From positions 1 to 64,000 of the forward strand of contig MPMR01000012.1 of the NCBI GenBank assembly GCA_002238605.1: a stretch of 64,000 bases of DNA, in the 5' to 3' direction. The notes below the pieces were generated by a model that saw only the letters and a program-made list of their open reading frames with translations, was not told the origin of the DNA and did no database searches. Position numbers and translations under genes: made by a program. Shown here one piece after another: positions 168-12,388 of the stretch. This DNA comes from BD2-11 clade cluster bacterium bin43. Lineage in GTDB: Bacteria > Gemmatimonadota > Gemmatimonadetes > Longimicrobiales > Gaopeijiaceae. The stretch's first letter is position 1, and every line of letters starts with the position of its first letter.

Positions 168-3100
168 TCACCTCCGCAGCCGCACCGCCTCCCTGAGCCC
201 GCGCGTCATGCTCACCTCCAGGCCGGCCCCGTCCCCGAGCCCGTCCGGCAGCGCCCCCTCCCAGTCCCGCAGGATCGCGCGCAGGCGTCCCGTCCCGGGT
301 TCGGTGACCACGGTGATGCGGCGCTCGTCGGCCTGGTCCACGTATGCCTGGCCCTCCGGCCCAGTCAGGGTGATGCGTTCGAGCGCATCCTCCCAGCCGG
401 CGTCAATGGGCACCGTGAAGAAGAAGTGCCTGCCGCCGTGCCCGTCGTCGCGGGGCGTGAAGTCCAGCGAGAAGAGCGCCCCGCCGTCGGAGGTGGACCC
501 GCGAATGCGGTAGGGACCCCACGTCCCGGGCAGTCTTGCCGCCGCGCGCATCGAGAACACCGGCTCGATCCACAGCTCGCCATCCACCATGCCGCCCCGG
601 AGCACGAGCATGTCGGAGCCCGGGTTCGCTGCGGCCAGCTGTGCGCTCGCGGTGTCCGCAGCCAGCTGCGCGCGATGGTCGATCACCTTCTCGAAATAGT
701 AGTCGCTGAGCCAGGGCAACGTCCGGCAGTAGGTCATGATGTCCTTGCCGCGGTCGGGAGGCACGGTGGATCCATTGCGGAAGTCGTATCCCCACACGCC
801 GATGCTCCCATCCTCGTAGGGGTACCTGGGATCGACGCCCTTGGGATCGCCGCACGGGGCGTGCCTGAGCGAGAGGTTGTGCCCTATTTCGTGCGCCAGC
901 GTGGTCGATCTCGCCACGCCGACGCTCACCCAGCCGGGCAACTGCCCGCGACCGGCGACGGACCCCAGGTCGGCGGCGACCCCGTAGTAGTAGCCCGTGC
1001 CGCCTTCCGACGCCCGCAGCGCCTCGAGTTCTCCAAAGAGGGACACCTGCCCGGCCGAGGTGGTGAGGTCCAGCGAGGTGTGATAGGCCTGGTGCGGGCG
1101 GACGCTGAACTCGGCAAACGGAAATGCGTGCCTGAGCAGTCCTGCCTCGGGACTGTCGGCGGAGACGCCGCGGACCCACGCCAGAACGGATGTGTCGGGT
1201 TCCGCAGCCGCGATGACCGGAACCAGCGTGAGCTCCATCCGGGGCACTTCCACCACGTTCAGGGAGTCGGATCCCTCGGCCGGGAATCGGACTTCGCTCC
1301 CGGGAGCGAGGGGCAGGCTGCCCGCGGGGTCGACCTCCACGACCATCTCGACGCCCGGGATGACGATCTCAGCGGGGATCACGGCGTTGTAGGACAGCTT
1401 GAGATCGCCCTCGTCCGCCTCGGCGGGGATCTGGTTGGCATCGCGGCTCATGACCGCGCGGTGGACCTCGTCCCCGTCCCGCCCGGTGAAGACCGCCACG
1501 ACCTCGGGCTCGAAGAACCCGCGCGGTTCCTCGGCTGTAACGAACGCCCTCAAAAGCGCGTCGCGGTTGGCCACCAGCCGCACTTGTCCGGACGGGGCCT
1601 GGACCGACTGGGTGAGGTAGACCATGGGCAGGGATACCGTGACCTGGTCCGGATTGTCGCAGACGGCGCCGGCCGTCTCGTCGATCGCGCCGTACCACGC
1701 CTGGAAGTCCGGCGCCGGGGACGCGCACAGGCCGGTGTCGTCGTGGAGCAGCACGCGTACCCGTTCCAGCTGCCGGAGCTCGAACGGCAGCGCGCCCTCC
1801 AGCCCCGGATTCCGGTCCAGGCGCAACTCGGCCAGTTCGTGCAAGCCGGCGATGGCGCTCGGCAACCCGCCGGACAGGTCGTTCCCGGCCAGGTCCATCA
1901 GCCGCAATTTGGTGAGGTTGGCGATCTCCGGAGGGAGCGGACCCGACAGGCCGTTGGCGGACAGGACCACTTCCACGACACGTCCGTCCCCGGTGGTCAC
2001 GCCATGCCAGCCTCCCAGGGGAGCGTCGGTGCCCCACGCCGCCCCGTTCGTCCATGACGGGCCGCCGGTCGCATCGTGCAAGTTGTTGAGGGCCAGTCGT
2101 TCGACTTGCCCGACATCGCAATCCGTCCTGCTGCCGTCCGGGATCTTCCGCAGCCACTCCTGGAACCCGTCGTCGATCTGAGCGCACAGGCCGGTTGCCT
2201 CGTACGACAATACCTGAAGGAACTCGAGGTCGACCAGGCTGCGCGGCAGCAGGCCGGCCAGATCCCGGTTCCCCTCGAGCTCGAGTCGAGCCAGGGCCCG
2301 GGGTCTGCCCAGATTGCGGGGCAGCTCGCCGCTCAGCTCGTTGTCCGCGGCGCGCAGGTCCTCAAGCCCCGCGAGATCGGCGAGTTCCTCGATCAAGGGA
2401 CCCGAAAGCCCGTTGTCGTGGATCCAGAGCGTCTCCAGTTCCGACAGGTTGCCCAGCGAAACGGGAATCCCGCCGGTGAGTTGGTTCTGGTAGAGATACA
2501 GCCCTTCCAGGGTGGTCAGGTTTCCCAGCTCGGGCGGAATCGTTCCCGTGAGGTTGTTCCGCGAAACCGACAGAATCCGAATCGCGCTCAGCTTCGCCAG
2601 TTCGGGCGGAATCGTGCCCGTCAACTCGTTACGGCTGAGGCTCATGTAGGTGAGATTCGCCAGGTTGCCCAGTTCCGGCGGCACCGGACCCGTCAACTGG
2701 TTCAACGCCAGGAGCAGCCTCCGCAGGGAGGCAATGTTCGCAAGTTGGGGGGGGATGGGGCCGGTCAGCTCGTTGCGGTGAAGCAGCAGGGAGTCGAGGC
2801 GCGGCAGGGATCCGAGTTCGGAAGGGATCGTCCCGCTCAGGCTGTTGTTGCCCAGATCGAGCATGGTCAACTGGTTCAGCCCGCCCAGTTCCGGCGGTAT
2901 CGAACCCGTCAGCTGGTTGCCCCCCAGAACCAGACGTCTCAGTTGGGGCAGATCCCCGAGTTCCGGCGGGATCGGACCCGTCAACTCGTTGTCGTCGAAA
3001 TCCAGTTGTCTCAGTTGAGTCAGATTCCCGAGTTCGGGCGGGAGCGTACCGGACAGGTTGTTGTCCGGGAGCGACAGCGCGGTGACCAGGCCGGCGGAGT

Positions 3101-3374
3101 TGGTCGACACCCCCTGCCAGTCCCGGATGCTACCGGTGGTTGTCCAGTTCCTCCGCCCATGCCATTGCGTCCCGTCCGTCGCGTTGTACAGGGCCATCAG
3201 CGCGGCCCGCTCGGCCGCATGCGGCTCCTGGGGGGGAGGCGGCGGGGGAGGAGTGGGCGGGGCGGTGGTCGCGGGATCGTCCGAGCAGACGGTCAGGAGG
3301 ATCGCGCAGAAGCCCACTGCCCAGACGCGTGATCTCCGACGTGCCATTGCGGCCCTCGTGATGATGGGGTCCAT
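168..3374 (-). CDS. LRR lipoprotein with C-terminal metzincin-like zinc protease domain
   Basis: This is a predicted exported protein of 1068 aa. A basic N-terminus and a short hydrophobic segment end at Cys30 (LLTVC, a poor lipobox), followed by a proline-rich linker at about residues 39-47. An LRR-N-terminal-like module then opens about twelve 24-residue plant-type repeats of the form LTGxIPPELGNL. A second such module (about residues 430-560) repeats the pattern. The C-terminal part has HExxHxxxxxH with His828, Glu829, His832 and His838, followed by an IMTYC met-turn-like segment, so a zinc peptidase of the metzincin type is inferred. The usual Gly inside the motif is Ser. The start was chosen because the frame upstream of 3374 has no signal-like sequence; ATG at 3347 is an alternative. 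Substrate and partner are unknown. Confidence 0.8.
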   Translation of the reverse strand: MDPIITRAAMARRRSRVWAVGFCAILLTVCSDDPATTAPPTPPPPPPPQEPHAAERAALMALYNATDGTQWHGRRNWTTTGSIRDWQGVSTNSAGLVTALSLPDNNLSGTLPPELGNLTQLRQLDFDDNELTGPIPPELGDLPQLRRLVLGGNQLTGSIPPELGGLNQLTMLDLGNNSLSGTIPSELGSLPRLDSLLLHRNELTGPIPPQLANIASLRRLLLALNQLTGPVPPELGNLANLTYMSLSRNELTGTIPPELAKLSAIRILSVSRNNLTGTIPPELGNLTTLEGLYLYQNQLTGGIPVSLGNLSELETLWIHDNGLSGPLIEELADLAGLEDLRAADNELSGELPRNLGRPRALARLELEGNRDLAGLLPRSLVDLEFLQVLSYEATGLCAQIDDGFQEWLRKIPDGSRTDCDVGQVERLALNNLHDATGGPSWTNGAAWGTDAPLGGWHGVTTGDGRVVEVVLSANGLSGPLPPEIANLTKLRLMDLAGNDLSGGLPSAIAGLHELAELRLDRNPGLEGALPFELRQLERVRVLLHDDTGLCASPAPDFQAWYGAIDETAGAVCDNPDQVTVSLPMVYLTQSVQAPSGQVRLVANRDALLRAFVTAEEPRGFFEPEVVAVFTGRDGDEVHRAVMSRDANQIPAEADEGDLKLSYNAVIPAEIVIPGVEMVVEVDPAGSLPLAPGSEVRFPAEGSDSLNVVEVPRMELTLVPVIAAAEPDTSVLAWVRGVSADSPEAGLLRHAFPFAEFSVRPHQAYHTSLDLTTSAGQVSLFGELEALRASEGGTGYYYGVAADLGSVAGRGQLPGWVSVGVARSTTLAHEIGHNLSLRHAPCGDPKGVDPRYPYEDGSIGVWGYDFRNGSTVPPDRGKDIMTYCRTLPWLSDYYFEKVIDHRAQLAADTASAQLAAANPGSDMLVLRGGMVDGELWIEPVFSMRAAARLPGTWGPYRIRGSTSDGGALFSLDFTPRDDGHGGRHFFFTVPIDAGWEDALERITLTGPEGQAYVDQADERRITVVTEPGTGRLRAILRDWEGALPDGLGDGAGLEVSMTRGLREAVRLRR

Positions 3375-3546
3375 GTCTCGAATGATGAAGCGGTTTCGCC
3401 GGTTCCTGCTACACCGCTTGCGATCTTCGGGGTCGCGGCAAGTTCCGGGCGCCTCGCCGGCCCGGCCCCTTTCCAGCCCGGCGCCTTCTTGCCAGCCCGG
3501 ACGCCTCGCCACTCCCGGTGCTCGCGCGGATTCATCCATCGTCTGC

Positions 3547-3605: not shown

Positions 3606-4505
3606 ATGCTGGACGATCGTCTGACCGAACAGCGCAATCCGCGCTCGCGCCGCGTCGACCGGCTGTCGCCCGCGGAGATCGTTGCGCTCATCAATGACGA
3701 GGACCGCACCGTGGCAGCGGCCGTCGGAGAGGAGGCTGCCGCCATCGCCCGGGCCATGGAGCTGGCGCGCGATGCGTTCGGCCGGGGCGGCCGGCTGATC
3801 TACGTGGGCGCGGGAACGTCCGGACGCCTGGGCGTGCTCGACGCGGCCGAGATGCCCCCGACCTACCGGACGGACCCGTCGATGGTGGTCGGCGTGATCG
3901 CGGGGGGCCACGGCGCGCTGGTGCGGGCGCGCGAGGGGGCGGAGGACGACCCGCGCGACGGCGCCCGCGAGATGGACCACCTCACCGTGGGCGGCGACGA
4001 TTTCGTCCTCGGCATCGCCACCTCCGGCACCACGCCCTTCGTGCACGGCGCGTTGCGGCGCGCGCGCGAGCGGGGCGCCCGCACCGGCTTCCTGCTGTGC
4101 ACGCCTCCTTCCGCTGAGCTGCTCGCCACCCACGACGTGGTCATCGCCCCCCTGGTCGGTCCCGAGGTGATCACGGGCTCGACGCGCATGAAGGCGGGCA
4201 CCGCCACCAAGCTGGTCCTGAACACCATCACGACCGGCGCCATGGTCCTCATGGGCAAGGTCTACGGAAACCTCATGGTGGATCTGCAGGTGACCTGCCG
4301 GAAGCTCCAGGACCGCGGGGAGCGCATCCTGATGACCACCGTGGGGCTGGAGCGGGACCCGGCCCGGGCCCTGCTGGAGGAGGCCGGCGGCCACGTCAAG
4401 ACGGCCATCGTGATGGCTCGCCGCGGGCTCGCCGCGGACGAGGCGCGCGCGCTCCTGAAGGAGAGCGGCGGGCGGGTGACGGATGTCCCCGGTGCCGCCC
4501 GATGA
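3606..4505 (+). CDS. murQ: N-acetylmuramic acid 6-phosphate etherase MurQ
   Basis: MurQ cleaves the lactyl ether of MurNAc-6-phosphate to GlcNAc-6-phosphate and D-lactate in the cytoplasm, a step of cell-wall recycling. The 299-aa length is normal for the family. A sugar isomerase (SIS) fold is visible: the phosphate loop GAGTSGR near residue 67, the AAEMPPTY segment with the presumed catalytic Glu82, SGTTPF, and the conserved GSTRMKAGTATK stretch near residue 198. The C-terminal helical tail is complete. It sits directly before anmK, which supplies its substrate class, so the two act in one pathway and are probably one operon. The start at 3606 has a weak ribosome-binding site but matches the family N-terminus. 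Confidence 0.97.
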   Translation: MLDDRLTEQRNPRSRRVDRLSPAEIVALINDEDRTVAAAVGEEAAAIARAMELARDAFGRGGRLIYVGAGTSGRLGVLDAAEMPPTYRTDPSMVVGVIAGGHGALVRAREGAEDDPRDGAREMDHLTVGGDDFVLGIATSGTTPFVHGALRRARERGARTGFLLCTPPSAELLATHDVVIAPLVGPEVITGSTRMKAGTATKLVLNTITTGAMVLMGKVYGNLMVDLQVTCRKLQDRGERILMTTVGLERDPARALLEEAGGHVKTAIVMARRGLAADEARALLKESGGRVTDVPGAAR

Positions 4506-4614
4506 CCGCTGCCGCCTCGCGATGCAGACGCAGCCGGATGACCGCCACCGGATCGCGATACAGGTGCCGCCGGTCGTCCCGCAGGCCCACCGCGGGCGCG
4601 TGACCGCCCCGGTC

Positions 4615-5763
4615 ATGAAGGTCCTGGGGATGATGTCCGGCACCTCGCTCGACGGTGTCGACGCCGCCCTGCTCGAGGTGGACGGCACGACCTCTGCGAC
4701 CTTCTCGTGGCGGTTGCTGGGATTTCACAGCGAGCGCTACCGACCGGAGGAGCGGGACTGGATCCGTCGCGCGATCGAGAGCGGCGGACCGGCCGAACTG
4801 GCCCGCCTGCACGCGGTCCTCGGGGAACGTCTTGCGCATTGCGCGCTTGACGCGTGCGCACGCGCCGGCGTGGACCCGCGGACAGTTGCGGCGATCGGCT
4901 CGCACGGCCAGACGGTGTGGCACGACCCACCTTCGGGGGAGGGTCGCGGCGCCACCCTCCAGCTGGGCGATCCCGCGACCATCGCGGAGATCACCGGCAT
5001 CCCGGTGGTGAGCGACTTCCGCACGCGCGACGTGGCGGCCGGGGGGCACGGCGCGCCTCTGGTGCCCTGGCCGGACCGGCTGCTCTTCTCCGCGCCCGAC
5101 CGGCCGCGCGCCCTCCAGAACCTGGGAGGGATGGCCAACGTCACCTGGCTGCCCGCGGCTTCTGAAGGCGAACCGGTCCTCGCTTTCGACACGGGTCCGG
5201 GGGTCGCGCTCATCGACACCGCCGCGGAACTCGCCACGGGCGGCCGCCGGACCTTCGACGCCGACGGTGAGCTCGCCGCGGCTGGCGAGGTGGATGCCGA
5301 GCTGCTGGATCGCTTGATGGAGCACCCGTTCCTGCGCCGCCAGCCGCCCAAATCCACCGGCCGCGAGGTCTTCGGCACCGCGTTCGTCCGCAGGTTCGTG
5401 GAACGCCGGGAGCCGCGAACACGGCGAGACTGGACGGACGTGGTCGCGACGCTTACGGCCTTTACCGCCGCCTCCGTCGCCGATGCCTATCGCCGCTGGG
5501 TGCTCCCCCGTGGCGTGAGCGAGGTGCTGCTGGCGGGCGGCGGCGCGCTGAACCCGGTGCTGGCGGGGATGATCGCCGACCGGCTCGCGCCCGTCCCGGT
5601 GCGTGATCTGACCGAACTGGGTCTCGATCCGGAAGCGCGCGAAGCCGCCTGCTTCGCGGTGCTGGCGTGGGCCCATCTGCAGGGCCTGCCGGCCAACGCG
5701 CCGGAGGCGACGGGGGCTTCGGGCCCCCGGGTGCTGGGCTCCCTTACGCCCGGTGGAGCGTGA
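4615..5763 (+). CDS. anmK: 1,6-anhydro-N-acetylmuramic acid kinase AnmK
   Basis: AnmK hydrolyses and phosphorylates anhMurNAc with ATP to MurNAc-6-phosphate, the substrate of MurQ encoded just upstream. The protein is 382 aa. It begins MKVLGMMSGTSLDGVD, the ASKHA-type ATP-binding start that defines the family. Further matches are GSHGQTVWHDP, the LGDP segment, NLGGMANVT, DTGPG and the C-terminal AGGGALNP. The ATG at 4615 places the ATP motif at the usual distance from the N-terminus. The frame continues upstream into murQ, and a GTG at 4600 would add five residues. It is followed by a palindrome at 5779-5794 facing a convergent gene. Confidence 0.97.
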   Translation: MKVLGMMSGTSLDGVDAALLEVDGTTSATFSWRLLGFHSERYRPEERDWIRRAIESGGPAELARLHAVLGERLAHCALDACARAGVDPRTVAAIGSHGQTVWHDPPSGEGRGATLQLGDPATIAEITGIPVVSDFRTRDVAAGGHGAPLVPWPDRLLFSAPDRPRALQNLGGMANVTWLPAASEGEPVLAFDTGPGVALIDTAAELATGGRRTFDADGELAAAGEVDAELLDRLMEHPFLRRQPPKSTGREVFGTAFVRRFVERREPRTRRDWTDVVATLTAFTAASVADAYRRWVLPRGVSEVLLAGGGALNPVLAGMIADRLAPVPVRDLTELGLDPEAREAACFAVLAWAHLQGLPANAPEATGASGPRVLGSLTPGGA

Positions 5764-5802: not shown

Positions 5803-6435
5803 TCAGCGCGTCCCCCGCCGGTAGAGCAGCACGAACGCCGCCGCGAACGCCGCGTGTTCGAGCAGTCCCGGGTCACGGCGGCCCTCCGGCGCCAGCGCGG
5901 ACAACGTTCGGACCATCGCGGGCGCGATGGGGTGGATGACGCGCGGGAGCCCGCCCCGGGGCGTCGCGGCGTACCGAGCGGCGCCGCACAGCCCTGCCTG
6001 CAGCAGGCGGCCGCCGGGGAGGTGGCGGCTGAGGACGGCGAGCGCCAGTCCCTCGGCCGCGCCCTGCACGAGCTCGAGGCCAAGCCCGGGATCGTCCCCG
6101 GACGACGCATCGTCCGCGACCAGTGAACCGATCGCGCGCGCCGCGAGCGCGGCCCCGGCCCCCGCGAGCGCCGCCCGCGGCAGGTCGCCGCGCGCCGAGG
6201 CGCGACGGGCTCGTCTCCCCACCGCCCGCCGGGCCAGCCCGCCGGCTTCGCCGAGCAGGTTCCCCCAGAGGAGGGAGGAGGCGGGCTTGCGCGCGGCAGA
6301 GGGCGTGCTCCCATTTCCAGACGCGACGAGCCGCCGTCCCCGGCCGGATCCTTTGCCGTTTCCGGCCCCCGAACCCATGCGCGCGGTCTCCCAGGCGTAG
6401 CCCAGCCGGTACCAGATGCCTGCCTTGGCTTCCAT
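5803..6435 (-). CDS. unknown protein with hydrophobic alanine-rich segments
   Basis: This 210-aa frame starts MEAKAGIWYRLGYAWE and is rich in Ala, Gly and Arg. Two moderately hydrophobic segments near residues 90-105 and the extreme C-terminus might associate with a membrane. I recognise no family. Support comes from strong GC preference at third positions and from its fit between flanking genes. Much of the longer frame upstream of 6435 lies antisense to a real gene and is not included. Its ATG is only six bases from the divergent ATG at 6442, which is unusual; ATG at 6378 is an alternative start. Confidence 0.55.
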   Translation of the reverse strand: MEAKAGIWYRLGYAWETARMGSGAGNGKGSGRGRRLVASGNGSTPSAARKPASSLLWGNLLGEAGGLARRAVGRRARRASARGDLPRAALAGAGAALAARAIGSLVADDASSGDDPGLGLELVQGAAEGLALAVLSRHLPGGRLLQAGLCGAARYAATPRGGLPRVIHPIAPAMVRTLSALAPEGRRDPGLLEHAAFAAAFVLLYRRGTR

Positions 6436-6441
6436 GATGCG

Positions 6442-9400
6442 ATGATAACCCGTTTTTGCCGTTTCCCGGACAAGAGTGGCGCCCGCGCCCGCGCGCTGAC
6501 AAGGGTGCTCCTGCCGCTGCTGTTCCTGGCGGGAGCGCTCCCGGCACCTGCGCCGGCCGCCGCCCAGGTGCCCCCCGACGAGAACTGGCGCACCTTCGAC
6601 ACCGAACACTTCCGGATCACCTATCCCGAGGCCCTCCATCCGCTGGCGACCCGGCTGGCCGACCGCGCGGAGCGGGCCTGGACGCAGCTCGCCTCGGGGT
6701 TCACCGCGCCACCGCCGGGCGCCATCGACATCGTGCTCACCGACCACGCCGACTACTCCAACGGCTTCGCCAACGTGGTCCCCGGCAACCGCATCACCCT
6801 CTTTGCGCGCCCGCCCGCGGACGGAGGCTCGCTCAACTACTTCGACGAGTGGATGGAGCTGGTGGTCACGCACGAGCTGGTCCACATCTTCCACCTCGAT
6901 CCCGCGGGCGGGCTGGGCGGGGTGCTGCGTGCCGTGCTGGGCCGCTACCCCGCCACGTGGCCCTTCTTCCCCGGGCGCGCGACGCCCACCTGGCTGACCG
7001 AGGGGATCGCCACCTACTACGAGTCGACGCTGACGGACGCGGGCCGCGTCCACGGCACCTGGCAGGACATGGTGCTCCGCACCGGCGTCCTGGAGAACGA
7101 CCTCGAACCGCTGTCCGTCGTCTCGGGCAGGAGCCCGGTGTGGCCGGCGGGTCTCCGTCCCTACGTCTACGGCTCCGAGTTCTTCCATTTCCTGATGGAA
7201 CGCACGGACACCCTGGGGATGGAGCAGCTCGTGCAGCAGGTGGCGGGACAGCTGGTGCCGTACCGGATCGACGCCGCCGCGCGCTCGGCGTTCGGCATCT
7301 CGTTCTCGCAGGCCTGGGAGGCGTGGCGAGCGTCCCTCTCCGCCGAGTACCGCGCCCTCTCCGATTCCCTCGCCGCCCTGCAGCCGCTCACCACCGGCGA
7401 AGCCCTGACCCGCGGGGCGCGCCAGGCGCTCTACCCGCGGGTCTCGCCGGACGGGGCGCGCCTCGCCTTTGCGCTCGCGGACGGCCGCTCGGACGCTCAT
7501 GTGCGCCTGCGCGACCTCGACGGCGGCGGAGAGCGCCGGTTCACCCGCACCAACGGCCTGTCCACTTTTTCGTGGACGCCCGACGGCGGGGTGATCTTCG
7601 CCCAGTTCGAGCTGGCGGACCGCTACCGGATCTACTCCGACCTCTACCACGCCGATGCGGGCGGCCGCGTGACCCGCGTCACCCGCGGTGGACGCCTGGC
7701 CTCCCCCGACGTGCACCCGGATGGCGACCGGGCGGTTGCTGTACAGGAGGGGGACGGCACCAACCGGCTCGTCCTGGTGGAGCTGGCCACCGGCGAAGTC
7801 AGCCCGCTGGCGGAAGCGGATCCCGCCGTGCACTGGGCCTTTCCGCGCTGGTCGCCCGACGGCGCCCGCATCGCCGTATCGCAGTGGCGGACCGGAGGCC
7901 GCTTCGATGTCGTCATTCTGGATGCCGGCGGCGGGGTGGTCGCGCGGGTGACCGACGACCGCGCCGTCGACGCGAGCCCCGCCTGGTCCCCCGACGGGCG
8001 CACCCTGCTGTGGTCCTCCGACCGAACCGGCATCCCCAACCTGTTCGCGGTCGCCATCGACGGGGACGGACGCCCGGGGGCAGTGCGCCAGGTCACCAAC
8101 CTGCTGACCGGGGCCGCCCACCCGTCCATCGACCCGGCGGGCGAGTGGATCTACTACTCGGCCTACCACCTCGACGGCTGGGACATCGAACGCATACCGT
8201 ACGACCCGGGCGAGTGGTTCGAACCCCTGGCCGGCGACCCGCGCTTCCTCGTGGGCGCCGATCGTTCTCCCGACCGCTTCGAGGCCGCGATCGAAGCCGA
8301 GAGCAGGCCGTACCGGGCGTTCCGCTCGCTTCTCCCGACCTACTGGCAGCCGCTCTACTCCCCGCCGCGAAGGATCCGGGAGCGCGATGTCGTCGGCCGC
8401 GCCTTCGGCTTCTCGACCTCCGGGCGCGACCTGGTGGACCGCCACTCGTTTCGGGCCTGGGGCCGCCTTATTCCCGACAAGCGCCGTGGGGAAGGCCGTC
8501 TCGGATACACGACCGCGGCGCTGGGCAACCCCGTGGTGACCCTCTCGGCGGGCCAGCTCTACGATCCCGCGGGCCTGACCCTGGGGGAGCGCGGGAACGG
8601 GGACCTGGACACGCTCTATGTGGTGGACAGGGAACGGCGCGTGCAGCTGAGCGTGGATCTCCAGCGGGCGCGCTTCCGCAACCGCATCGGCCTCACCCTC
8701 GAGGCCAGCCACAACTGGGTGTCCTCCGAGCTGCTGGACGGGACGCTCGAACCCTCCACCACCTTCCGGCTCAACCGCCCAACCCGGCGCGTCGGGGAGC
8801 TGGCCGCGACCGTGGGCTTCAACACCGCCCGCGCGTACGCCATGTCCATGACCCGCGCAGACGGTGTTTCCGGCGCCCTTCGCGGTCGCGTCGCGCGCGT
8901 GCTCGATCTTCCCGACGACCTCGCCGGCAACCCCTCCGCCGACCACGGCTTCGAGGAGATGACCGGTCGCCTGTCCCTCTACCGGGCGCTCGGAAACGTC
9001 GGCTTCGCCCAGCAGGTGTTCGCCCTGCGCGCGAGCGGCGGCATTGCGCGCGGGCCTGGCGCCGACGGCTTTCATTTCGAGGTTGGAGACGCCGCCGGCA
9101 CGCGTGAGCGCATCACCGGCTTCGGCCTCTTCGGAGGCTCGCCCCTCCTCTTTCCGGTGCGCGGCTACTCCATCGCGTCCCGCCGGGGACGCATCGCCTG
9201 GTCGGCGTCGGCCGAATACCGGGTGCCGCTCTCGCTCATTCGCCGGGGTCTCGGGGCCTGGCCGCTCTACTTCGACCGGGTCGGCGCGAGCCTGTTCGCC
9301 GATGCGGGCAACGCCTGGGGCCCGGAGGGCGAGGCCGAGCCCTCCCGGAGTCCGAAACGGGCTGCCCTCGCTTCCGTCGGACTCGAACTAACCGTGAACG

Positions 9401-9537
9401 CGCTGCCGTTCTGGACCCTCTCCACCGACGTGCGCATGGGGGTGGCCTTCCCTCTCAGGGCCGAGAACGATCCCCCCGGGGCGGCGCTTCGCGTGCGCAA
9501 GGGTCGGCTCCATCTGCGCCTGGGATCGGCGTTCTAG
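6442..9537 (+). CDS. gluzincin peptidase (MA-like) fused to TolB-type propeller and Omp85-like barrel
   Basis: This is an exported 1031-aa protein. A signal peptide (Arg-rich start, then LLPLLFLAGALPAPAPAAA) leads into a peptidase-MA-like domain with HELVH at residues 144-148 and a third ligand Glu187 in WLTEGIATYYE. Residues about 330-600 hold WSPDG-type repeats of a TolB/PD40 beta-propeller. The last 350 residues alternate like a beta-barrel. They contain FPVRGY (Arg907-Gly908), resembling the VRGF/Y loop motif of Omp85/BamA proteins, and end in Phe. An outer-membrane protein exposing a protease-propeller module is inferred; the substrate is unknown. The barrel assignment is the least certain part. 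The next gene is nrdJ after a 310-base gap. Confidence 0.85.
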   Translation: MITRFCRFPDKSGARARALTRVLLPLLFLAGALPAPAPAAAQVPPDENWRTFDTEHFRITYPEALHPLATRLADRAERAWTQLASGFTAPPPGAIDIVLTDHADYSNGFANVVPGNRITLFARPPADGGSLNYFDEWMELVVTHELVHIFHLDPAGGLGGVLRAVLGRYPATWPFFPGRATPTWLTEGIATYYESTLTDAGRVHGTWQDMVLRTGVLENDLEPLSVVSGRSPVWPAGLRPYVYGSEFFHFLMERTDTLGMEQLVQQVAGQLVPYRIDAAARSAFGISFSQAWEAWRASLSAEYRALSDSLAALQPLTTGEALTRGARQALYPRVSPDGARLAFALADGRSDAHVRLRDLDGGGERRFTRTNGLSTFSWTPDGGVIFAQFELADRYRIYSDLYHADAGGRVTRVTRGGRLASPDVHPDGDRAVAVQEGDGTNRLVLVELATGEVSPLAEADPAVHWAFPRWSPDGARIAVSQWRTGGRFDVVILDAGGGVVARVTDDRAVDASPAWSPDGRTLLWSSDRTGIPNLFAVAIDGDGRPGAVRQVTNLLTGAAHPSIDPAGEWIYYSAYHLDGWDIERIPYDPGEWFEPLAGDPRFLVGADRSPDRFEAAIEAESRPYRAFRSLLPTYWQPLYSPPRRIRERDVVGRAFGFSTSGRDLVDRHSFRAWGRLIPDKRRGEGRLGYTTAALGNPVVTLSAGQLYDPAGLTLGERGNGDLDTLYVVDRERRVQLSVDLQRARFRNRIGLTLEASHNWVSSELLDGTLEPSTTFRLNRPTRRVGELAATVGFNTARAYAMSMTRADGVSGALRGRVARVLDLPDDLAGNPSADHGFEEMTGRLSLYRALGNVGFAQQVFALRASGGIARGPGADGFHFEVGDAAGTRERITGFGLFGGSPLLFPVRGYSIASRRGRIAWSASAEYRVPLSLIRRGLGAWPLYFDRVGASLFADAGNAWGPEGEAEPSRSPKRAALASVGLELTVNALPFWTLSTDVRMGVAFPLRAENDPPGAALRVRKGRLHLRLGSAF

Positions 9538-9665: not shown

Positions 9666-9731
9666 CGCGACATACGGCACCCCTGAGACACCGGCGCCAC
9701 TAGATACGGTGGTTCTGCGGGGTGCCGAGCA

Positions 9732-9815
9732 GTTTCCACAAGCCGACACCCTGGCTGGCGTGCTTTCTGCTTGTTTTGCACAAAGGTGGGGGCTGTTTCC
9801 ACTCGTTTTCCCACA
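9732..9815 (+). promoter_or_regulatory. three DnaA-box-like sites upstream of nrdJ
   Basis: TTTTGCACA (9774-9782) fits the general DnaA box TTWTNCACA exactly. GTTTCCACA (9732-9740) and TTTCCCACA (9807-9815) each differ from it at one base, and a weaker GTTTCCACT is at 9795. The spacings are 42 and 33 bases, near whole helical turns. DnaA control of ribonucleotide reductase genes is known in E. coli; its use here is inference. Confidence 0.35.
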
Positions 9816-9847
9816 ACTCCGGCAAATCCGACAAAATGGAAGGCAGC

Positions 9848-12388
9848 ATGGCGGCCCAACGACCCGCATCTCCGGACGCTCCACCGGCGCACGACGTGCC
9901 CCCCCCCGATCTCCCGCGCGCGACGCTTACGGAGAACGCCCGCATCGTCCTCGGGCTCCGCTATCTCAAGAAGAACGAGGAGGGCGAGCCGACCGAAGAG
10001 CCCGAGACCATGTTCTGGCGGGTCGCGCGCGTGATCGCGGAGGAGGACCGCCGCCATGGCGCAACGGACGCGGCGATCGACGAGGTCGCGCGCCGGTTCT
10101 ACGACCTCATGGCGACCGGCACGTTCGAGCCCAACTCTCCCACGCTCATGAACGCGGGACGGCCTCTCGGACAGCTCTCCGCGTGTTTCGTGCTCCCCGT
10201 CGACGATGCCCTCTCCAACGATAAGAGCGGCATCTACGACACCCTCAAGAGCATGGCGCTGGTCCACCAGTCGGGAGGAGGCACGGGGTTCTCGTTCTCC
10301 CGCCTGCGCACCGAGGGCGACACCGTGCGCTCCACCATGGGAGTCGCGTCCGGCCCGGTGTCCTTCATGCGCCTCTACGACTCCTCCACCGAGGTCGTGA
10401 AGCAGGGAGGGACGCGCCGGGGCGCGAACATGGGCATTCTGCGGGTGGACCATCCCGACATCCGCACCTTCATCACCTGCAAGGACGACACGTCCCAGAT
10501 CACCAACTTCAACATCTCGGTCGCCATCACCGACGCGTTCATGCAGGCGGTGGCGAAGGGCGAGGACTACGACCTCGTCAGCCCGCGCACCGGCGATGTC
10601 GTGGGTCGCGAGAACGCGAGCGAGATCTTCGACATGATCGTGCAGGGTGCGTGGAAGACCGGCGAGCCGGGCGTCTTCTTCATCGACCGGGCCAACGAAT
10701 TCAACCCGGTGCCGAAGCTGGGCCAATACGAGGCCACCAATCCGTGCGGTGAACAGCCGCTGCTGCCCTACGACGTGTGCAACCTGGGGAGCCTCAATCT
10801 CGGCCCGTTCGTGCGCAGGGGGAGCTCGTGGGACGACGATTCCCGGGACGCAATCGACTGGGAGGGGCTCCGCCGGGTCGTCCACCTGTCCGTGCACTTC
10901 CTGGACAACGTGATCGACGCCAACCGCTATCCGCTGCCGCAGATCACCGAGCTGGCGGAGAGAATACGACGCATCGGGCTGGGCGTGATGGGCTGGGCGG
11001 ACATGCTGGTGCGGCTGGGAGTCCCGTACAACTCCGATGCCGCCGTGAAGCTCGCCGAAACCGTCATGCGCTTCATCGACGAGGAAGCCAAGGTCGCTTC
11101 CGCGAAGCTGGCGGAAAGCCGGGGTGTGTTCCCGGCCTGGACGGAATCCATCTGGGGTCCCGAGGAGAGCTGCGCCCGCCGCGCCGACGGAAGCCGCATT
11201 CGTCCGATGCGTCCGCTGCGCAACTGCAACCTCGACACGGTCGCCCCGACGGGCACCATTTCCATCTTCGCTGGCTGCTCGGGCGGCATCGAACCCCTGT
11301 TCGCGGTGGCGTTCATGCGCAACCAGGCCGGCGTGCTGATGCCCGACGTCAACGAGGACTTCGTGCGCATCGCCAGGGAGGGGGGCTGGTACTCGGAGGA
11401 ACTCATGGAGCGGGTGGCGGAGAGCGGCCACATCCACCACGAGGAGGTGCCCGAGGACGTGCAGCGGGTGTTCGTGACCGCGCACGACATCACCCCGGAA
11501 TGGCACGTGCGCATGCAGGCGGCGTTCCAGAAGTACACCGACGCCGCCATTTCCAAGACCACCAACTTTCCCCATGAGGCGACGCCGGAGGATGTCCGCG
11601 AGATCTACGAGCTGGCCTTCTCGCTGGGGTGCAAGGGCGTGACCGTGTACCGCGACGGGTCCCGCCCGATGCAGGTGCTCTCGACCGGCAAGACCGAGAA
11701 GGAGCCGGAAACGACCGGCGAGAAAACGCAGACGACCGGCGAGATCGAGCAGGAGCTCGCGGATGCGCGCGAGGAATGTCACCGGCTGCGTGGCAAGCTC
11801 GAGGAATACGCGCAGCGTGACCGGGACCGCGACCGCCTGGCCGGCGCCGGCCGCCACAAGCGCAAGCGCCCCGCGCTCCTGAAGGGACGTACCGTGAAGA
11901 TGGACTGTCCGCTCGGCGATCTCTACGTCACCATCAACGAGGACGAGACCGGACGACCCTTCGAGGTCTTCTGCACGCTGGGCAAGGCGGGCGGCGCCGC
12001 AATGGCGGACGCGGAGGCGATCGGGCGCCTGATCTCTCTCGCACTTCGCTCGGGAATCCCCATTACCGCCGTCCGCGATCAGCTTCGCGGCATCTCCTGC
12101 GACCGCGCCGTCGGGTTCGGGCTCCGCAAGGTCCTTTCCGCCCCCGACGCCATCGGCCAGGCGATCGAGTACTACCTGCAGGAAAAGGACGGAATCCAGG
12201 CCGAACTCGTCCTCACCGCTCCCGTGACTTCAGCCGCCGGGCCGGCCACCCCTGCCGTCGAGTCTTCCGGCGGCAGCTCCTCCAGGTCGGGCTATCTGGG
12301 CAGCTGTCCGGACTGCGGCACCGGTCAGCTCTCCTTCGAGGAGGGGTGCGTGAAGTGCCATGTGTGCGGCTTCAGCGAGTGCAGTTGA
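9848..12388 (+). CDS. nrdJ: adenosylcobalamin-dependent (class II) ribonucleotide reductase
   Basis: NrdJ reduces ribonucleotides to deoxyribonucleotides using coenzyme B12, with or without oxygen. The protein is 846 aa. The active-site cysteines are visible: Cys113 in SACFVLP and Cys300 in NPCGEQPLL. NPCGE and the downstream DVCNLGSLNLG segment are typical of the catalytic barrel. Around residues 610-680 a charged, probably coiled-coil linker precedes a TSCPD-like region. The C-terminus carries CPDCG and CVKCHVCGFSEC, the redox or zinc-binding tail. The start at 9848 follows GGAAGG at 4 bases; ATG at 9836 and a frame from 9722 are less likely. It stands alone, with its own promoter region. 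Confidence 0.96.
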   Translation: MAAQRPASPDAPPAHDVPPPDLPRATLTENARIVLGLRYLKKNEEGEPTEEPETMFWRVARVIAEEDRRHGATDAAIDEVARRFYDLMATGTFEPNSPTLMNAGRPLGQLSACFVLPVDDALSNDKSGIYDTLKSMALVHQSGGGTGFSFSRLRTEGDTVRSTMGVASGPVSFMRLYDSSTEVVKQGGTRRGANMGILRVDHPDIRTFITCKDDTSQITNFNISVAITDAFMQAVAKGEDYDLVSPRTGDVVGRENASEIFDMIVQGAWKTGEPGVFFIDRANEFNPVPKLGQYEATNPCGEQPLLPYDVCNLGSLNLGPFVRRGSSWDDDSRDAIDWEGLRRVVHLSVHFLDNVIDANRYPLPQITELAERIRRIGLGVMGWADMLVRLGVPYNSDAAVKLAETVMRFIDEEAKVASAKLAESRGVFPAWTESIWGPEESCARRADGSRIRPMRPLRNCNLDTVAPTGTISIFAGCSGGIEPLFAVAFMRNQAGVLMPDVNEDFVRIAREGGWYSEELMERVAESGHIHHEEVPEDVQRVFVTAHDITPEWHVRMQAAFQKYTDAAISKTTNFPHEATPEDVREIYELAFSLGCKGVTVYRDGSRPMQVLSTGKTEKEPETTGEKTQTTGEIEQELADAREECHRLRGKLEEYAQRDRDRDRLAGAGRHKRKRPALLKGRTVKMDCPLGDLYVTINEDETGRPFEVFCTLGKAGGAAMADAEAIGRLISLALRSGIPITAVRDQLRGISCDRAVGFGLRKVLSAPDAIGQAIEYYLQEKDGIQAELVLTAPVTSAAGPATPAVESSGGSSSRSGYLGSCPDCGTGQLSFEEGCVKCHVCGFSECS

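Follow-up and report, generated by a model that had tools for sequence, protein, structure and literature searches.

How a peptidase motif, a β-propeller and an outer-membrane barrel come to be joined in one protein, and what such a protein might do for the cell, is the question raised by the open reading frame at positions 6442–9537 (+ strand) of the window, by which we mean the whole stretch of 64,000 nucleotides of contig MPMR01000012.1 analyzed here. An earlier note, made from the sequence alone, had claimed that a protease module with HELVH and a distal glutamate, a propeller with WSPDG repeats and an Omp85-like barrel with a VRGY loop motif occur in a single chain of 1031 residues, with the protease either exposed or facing the periplasm.

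A Three-Part Protein Encoded by an Intact Frame

The claim of a three-module chain was borne out. The frame is intact, starts with ATG and encodes 1031 amino acids; HELVH occupies residues 144–148, PVRGY is present, and the PD40 and Omp85 families both match. From the N terminus to the C terminus, the protein consists of a signal peptide, a gluzincin-fold peptidase, a six-bladed TolB-like propeller, a linker and an Omp85 barrel devoid of POTRA domains. An AlphaFold2 model of the whole chain, for which 24 homologues were used as input, had a mean pLDDT of 86.5 and a pTM of 0.85, and we consider it close to certain that peptidase, propeller and barrel are parts of one polypeptide. Homologues in 55 of 59 relatives and the invariance of key residues in all 37 aligned sequences (see below) argue that the arrangement is not a product of chance.

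The signal peptide region (residues 1–42; positions 6442–6567, + strand) was recognized by reading the sequence: an arginine-rich start is followed by the hydrophobic core LLPLLFLAGALP and then by AAAQ, which precedes VPP. Residues 1–40 were modeled with a pLDDT below 50, and the exact start codon is uncertain because residues 1–18 or so vary among close relatives. No promoter or terminator patterns stood out near the gene.

A Gluzincin-Type Metallopeptidase Domain

Residues 43–316 (positions 6568–7389, + strand) were assigned as a gluzincin-type metallopeptidase domain on the basis of motifs, invariance and fold matches. Downstream of HELVH lies EGIAT (residues 187–191), which contains the predicted third zinc ligand, E187. 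In a conservation alignment of 37 sequences drawn from across the class, H144, E145, H148, E187 and Y241 were invariant in 37 of 37. Folded alone, the domain gave a pLDDT of 78.9 and a pTM of 0.80, and when this isolated model was compared with known structures the matches were to lugdulysin of family M30 (Z 16.3), to M1 aminopeptidases (Z about 15–16) and to leukotriene A4 hydrolase (Z 15.0); Foldseek matches of the domain also include collagenases (M9) and an M61 peptidase. An HExxH motif, a downstream glutamate and, in the predicted model, a gluzincin fold are thus all present, as expected of clan MA(E) and in support of the protease module proposed in the earlier note.

The likeness to Peptidase_MA that the note had raised held for motif and fold and not for the profile score: Peptidase_MA_2 (PF13485), which has a cut-off of 32.4 bits, reached 17.9 bits with the isolated domain and 14.3 bits with the whole protein, and the domain passes no Pfam cut-off. 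A search of solved-structure sequences with the peptidase profile returned only a weak, M1-type match (E 0.21), and the barrel profile likewise reached an E value of 0.49 at best; because both searches were weak, structure comparison was needed for these two domains.

A TolB-Like Propeller and a Variable Linker

The claim of a WSPDG propeller was confirmed. Residues 317–590 (positions 7390–8211, + strand) form a six-bladed TolB-like β-propeller in which the WSPDG-type repeats are recognized as PD40 (Pfam E value 6.9e-14) and the NCBIfam model of TolB-like propellers matches with an E value of 9e-33. When the propeller and barrel models were compared with known structures using VIA-align, the propeller superimposed on TolB structures with Z 25–27 over about 238 residues and an rmsd of 2.2–2.4. 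The TolB equivalog TIGR02800 scored 113.8 bits, over the propeller only, and did not reach its cut-off of 343.15. The propeller is followed by a poorly conserved linker (residues 591–645; positions 8212–8376, + strand), so assigned from its mean pairwise identity of 0.28 and from a pLDDT of about 59–73 at residues 601–620.

An Omp85 Barrel with the Loop 6 Motif

The remainder of the chain (residues 646–1031; positions 8377–9534, + strand) is an Omp85-type transmembrane β-barrel that ends in phenylalanine. PF01103 (Bac_surface_Ag), whose cut-off is 24 bits, scored 36.7, residues 837–1031 corresponding to profile positions 155–325 of 325, and the same family matched 18 of 24 homologues at E values up to 0.01. 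The barrel model aligned with BamA of D. radiodurans (8xnb) over 324 residues (Z 22.4, rmsd 4.6) and with that of E. coli (9mge) over 307 residues (Z 21.0, rmsd 3.5). The predicted structure thus contains a BamA-like barrel, in line with the Omp85-like barrel that had been claimed. The proposed extent, residues 680–1031, needs correction at its start, which lies near residues 646–654, and the proposed count of 16 strands is reached only if a short stretch at residues 643–651 is added to the 15 long strands, which run from 654 to 1027. No POTRA families appeared among the Pfam matches of the protein or of its 24 homologues.

In the model, the loop that bears VRGY lies between strands 856–870 and 918–936 and is followed by five strands, which is the position of loop 6 in Omp85 proteins, as the earlier note had supposed; neither of the two outcomes that the note had named as refuting its claim, a model lacking a barrel and a misplaced VRGY, thus came about. 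The motif itself, PVRGY (residues 905–909; positions 9154–9168, + strand), was assigned from this position and from the invariance of R907 and G908; the barrel also carries FADAGNAW at residues 952–959. None of R907, G908, E925 and D954 varies among the 37 sequences, all of which end in an aromatic residue. An hhalign comparison of the barrel profile with E. coli BamA alone gave a weak alignment (E 0.1), with E925 and D954 in register and the VRG letters out of register. A literature search on the loop-6 salt bridge turned up no paper.

Distribution and Conservation

The three-part protein is real and phylum-wide in Gemmatimonadota. Besides those in 55 of 59 relatives, among which the full-length copies are about 39–86% identical, homologues turned up in 198 members of a sample of 261 good-quality genomes from the phylum, a count that includes some partial or paralogous matches. 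A contig scan for homologues yielded ten loci, all of them from Gemmatimonadota or from mislabelled near relatives, and four metagenome-assembled genomes titled Gammaproteobacteria (L031, L033, L035 and L039), in which the gene product is 85–86% identical to our protein, look like mislabelled Gemmatimonadota. Distribution outside the phylum was followed by a plasmid search, which returned 17 records, one of them a Salinibacter peptidase-propeller protein that lacks a barrel; matches in a viral structure search were of the propeller type. We rejected a horizontal or phage origin because homologues are spread across the class, most genomes having a single full-length copy, and because gene order is conserved; inheritance looks vertical across the phylum.

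The three domains differ in how well they are conserved, mean pairwise identity being 0.46 for the peptidase, 0.40 for the propeller and 0.35 for the barrel. The first place of the peptidase in this ranking speaks for a working enzyme, as does the invariant zinc site.

A Peptidoglycan-Recycling Neighborhood

The gene sits in a peptidoglycan-recycling locus, a setting that the earlier note overlooked and that is evident from the conserved neighbors murQ, anmK, nagZ and an amidase. Within the window, murQ and anmK are followed in turn by a divergent small open reading frame, the gene under study, nrdJ, an M28 peptidase gene and a nitrilase gene, the last named by reading the sequence. The MurNAc-6-phosphate etherase-like gene with a SIS domain at positions 3606–4505 (+ strand; GKRP_SIS_N, 8.4e-18) is presumably murQ, a name that fits the family and the adjoining anmK, the anhydro-MurNAc kinase gene (positions 4483–5763, + strand; PF03702, 4.1e-98). 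Downstream lies nrdJ (positions 9722–12388, + strand), assigned as a B12-type ribonucleotide reductase gene from PF02867 (7e-127) and synteny. The divergent frame (positions 5803–6436, − strand; 210 amino acids, beginning MEAKAGIWYRLGYAWETARMG) starts a few bases from the start of our gene; similar small frames occupy the equivalent place in four other loci (L040, L090, L091 and L095), and the L091 copy has no Pfam match. Positions 168–3539 of the window (− strand) encode a protein of 1123 amino acids with many leucine-rich repeats and a zinc-protease motif, HEIGHNLSLRH.

The order that is widely conserved is murQ–anmK–nagZ–(kinase/phosphatase)–amidase–target gene–nrdJ, and synteny with the peptidoglycan-recycling genes extends through several families of the class. 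Among 21 further loci, murQ or anmK was found 5′ of the gene in 18 and nrdJ, its most constant downstream neighbor, 3′ of it in 20. Outside the window's own family, 26 of 30 loci (11 of 12 in one set and 15 of 18 in another) have a gene for an N-acetylmuramoyl-L-alanine amidase immediately 5′ of our gene and in the same orientation; it is an Amidase_3 (PF01520, 3.7e-25) that often touches our gene or lies within about 150 bases of it. The amidase is not upstream in the window or in the window's family, where its place is often taken by a membrane protein that matches no Pfam family. Farther upstream of the amidase are nagZ-like GH3 genes, and on the opposite strand is a gene that, judged from its sequence, resembles PP2C phosphatases, accompanied in four inspected loci by a kinase-like gene and one for a small zinc-ribbon (FHA-like) protein, likewise recognized by reading. 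In L139, L130, L133 and L144 these genes make up a divergent phosphatase-like/kinase-like/FHA-like cassette upstream of our gene; its kinase-like protein has zinc ribbons, and in many members of the class the cassette separates nagZ from the amidase or from our gene. Taken by itself, the gene order says little about shared function, because nrdJ, which is not a cell-wall gene, is equally constant.

A Paralogue of the Same Design

The genome encodes, at another place, a paralogue (G000:C28:14918-18034) that is 1038 amino acids long and 26% identical to our protein, with peptidase, propeller and Omp85 barrel in identical order. It passes the Pfam cut-offs for the BSP peptidase and Omp85 families. 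Its neighborhood differs, consisting of MCE, ABC-ATPase and permease genes that read as an Mla/MlaEF-type lipid-transport set; the paralogue is convergent with these Mla-type genes, the first of which is within about 90 bases (L119:6919-12858, equivalent to G000:C28:14918-20857). The peptidase-propeller half of the paralogue is 46% identical to the barrel-less protein of Salinibacter ruber, which is encoded on plasmid pSR116 (L110:2872-4773) and annotated as basic secretory protein-like. The genome also holds two stronger Omp85 matches, in open frames of 832–1003 amino acids, which could be BamA or related proteins.

Proposed Function and Its Rivals

Since the neighbors are cell-wall recycling genes, the protein is probably an outer-membrane-tethered enzyme that acts on the cell envelope. 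Stated in full, the reading to which we give an even chance is that of an outer-membrane-anchored zinc metallopeptidase, with its soluble modules in the periplasm, that serves in envelope or cell-wall turnover. The protein would be exported by Sec, its C-terminal Omp85-type barrel would insert in the outer membrane, and the peptidase-propeller module would hang on the periplasmic side, at the place usually taken by POTRA domains. We infer from the sequence that the gluzincin site binds zinc and has peptidase activity: H144, H148 and E187 would hold the metal, and E145 would act as the general base in cleavage of a peptide bond. The TolB-like propeller may dock or gate the substrate, which we guess to be either a stem peptide of the cell wall or a wall-linked envelope protein, because murQ, anmK, nagZ and the amidase lie beside the gene; the role would then be one in envelope turnover. 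As to the alternative that the earlier note had left between an exposed and a periplasm-facing protease, attachment to a barrel is supported, and the periplasmic side is the likely one by analogy, because the N-terminal domains of Omp85 proteins are periplasmic and the enzyme domain of PlpD stays in the periplasm (PMC11116518).

The main rival to a periplasmic metallopeptidase is that the protein serves chiefly in outer-membrane assembly, as a BamA-like barrel that brings along its own BamB/TolB-like propeller and whose peptidase would clear misfolded barrel proteins as assembly proceeds. The Omp85 barrel with its loop-6 VRGY and its invariant acidic residues E925 and D954 would suit such a role, one that Heinz and Lithgow suggested for WD40-Omp85 proteins (PMC4104836). 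We nevertheless consider it rather unlikely: Pfam detected no POTRA domain, conservation is lowest in the barrel, and either of the two stronger Omp85 matches in the genome could serve as BamA or a related protein. The precedent of PlpD bears on a different proposal, that of a self-displayed surface protease in the style of type Vd secretion, in which the barrel would carry a peptidase-propeller passenger outside to digest external protein. The PlpD enzyme-barrel fusion was at first interpreted as just such a case of surface display (as described in PMC4104836), but its enzyme domain was later shown to be periplasmic. If the argument made for PlpD is extended to our protein, a folded peptidase and propeller passing through a small Omp85 pore are hard to picture, and the neighbors are wall-recycling genes and not uptake systems, so we see only a slim chance for surface display. 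Slimmer still is the chance that the peptidase domain has lost catalysis and serves as a scaffold, so that the protein does no more than connect wall enzymes, for example the amidase, with the outer membrane. In favor of that idea, binding is the usual task of propellers and Omp85 barrels, and most loci outside the window's family have the amidase immediately upstream; against it, a dead enzyme would not be expected to keep HExxH, E187 and Y241 unchanged in all 37 sequences.

Returning to the periplasmic metallopeptidase, we put forward as a tentative extension, with less expectation that it is right, that Omp85 serves throughout the phylum as the scaffold of an outer-membrane metallopeptidase which, at the outer membrane's inner face and together with the co-encoded amidase, processes proteins linked to the wall or the peptides of peptidoglycan. 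We found no description of an Omp85 scaffold put to such processing in the papers searched.

Comparison with Known Systems

Omp85 barrels are mostly known for protein insertion or export, with POTRA domains as the periplasmic part. PlpD is a precedent for such a scaffold carrying a periplasmic lipase instead, and should our protein and its homologues prove to be active peptidases, the Omp85 scaffold would serve envelope enzymes more generally, and a widespread, near-core protein encoded in a conserved wall-recycling locus of a poorly studied phylum would gain a function open to testing. Like PlpD and FplA, the protein combines an N-terminal hydrolase with an Omp85 barrel in a single chain; theirs is a patatin lipase with POTRA, whereas ours is a metallopeptidase with a propeller, the N-terminal domain being a gluzincin and the protein having no Pfam match to patatin. 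It differs from BamA and TamA in having no POTRA domains and in carrying a peptidase and a propeller in its N-terminal part. With TolB it shares the propeller fold (Z 27 over 239 residues), but TolB has neither peptidase nor barrel. With gluzincins such as lugdulysin (M30), aminopeptidase N (M1), basic secretory protein and DUF1570, it shares HExxH, the downstream glutamate and the fold, yet identity in the structural matches shown is 9–18% and the peptidase domain reaches the cut-off of no known family.

We take PF00149 to be the metallophosphoesterase family, and an Omp85 subfamily built on it therefore differs from our protein. Heinz and Lithgow (2014; PMC4104836) keep separate a "Metallo" subfamily that is defined by PF00149, and they describe as a class of its own the WD40-Omp85 proteins, in which an N-terminal WD40/TolB-like propeller is joined to an Omp85 barrel without POTRA. 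The earlier note, which knew of no described function, had overlooked this subfamily of propeller-Omp85 fusions, and our protein has the propeller and POTRA-less barrel that define it. It differs in having a gluzincin domain before the propeller, although published members may have one too, the main text of that paper making no mention of a peptidase domain, and in belonging to a family apparently inherited vertically across one phylum. No description of a protein with all three domains turned up in literature searches. To the published class the present analysis adds a gluzincin domain, conservation of this branch throughout the phylum, a paralogue of like design and a neighborhood of cell-wall genes.
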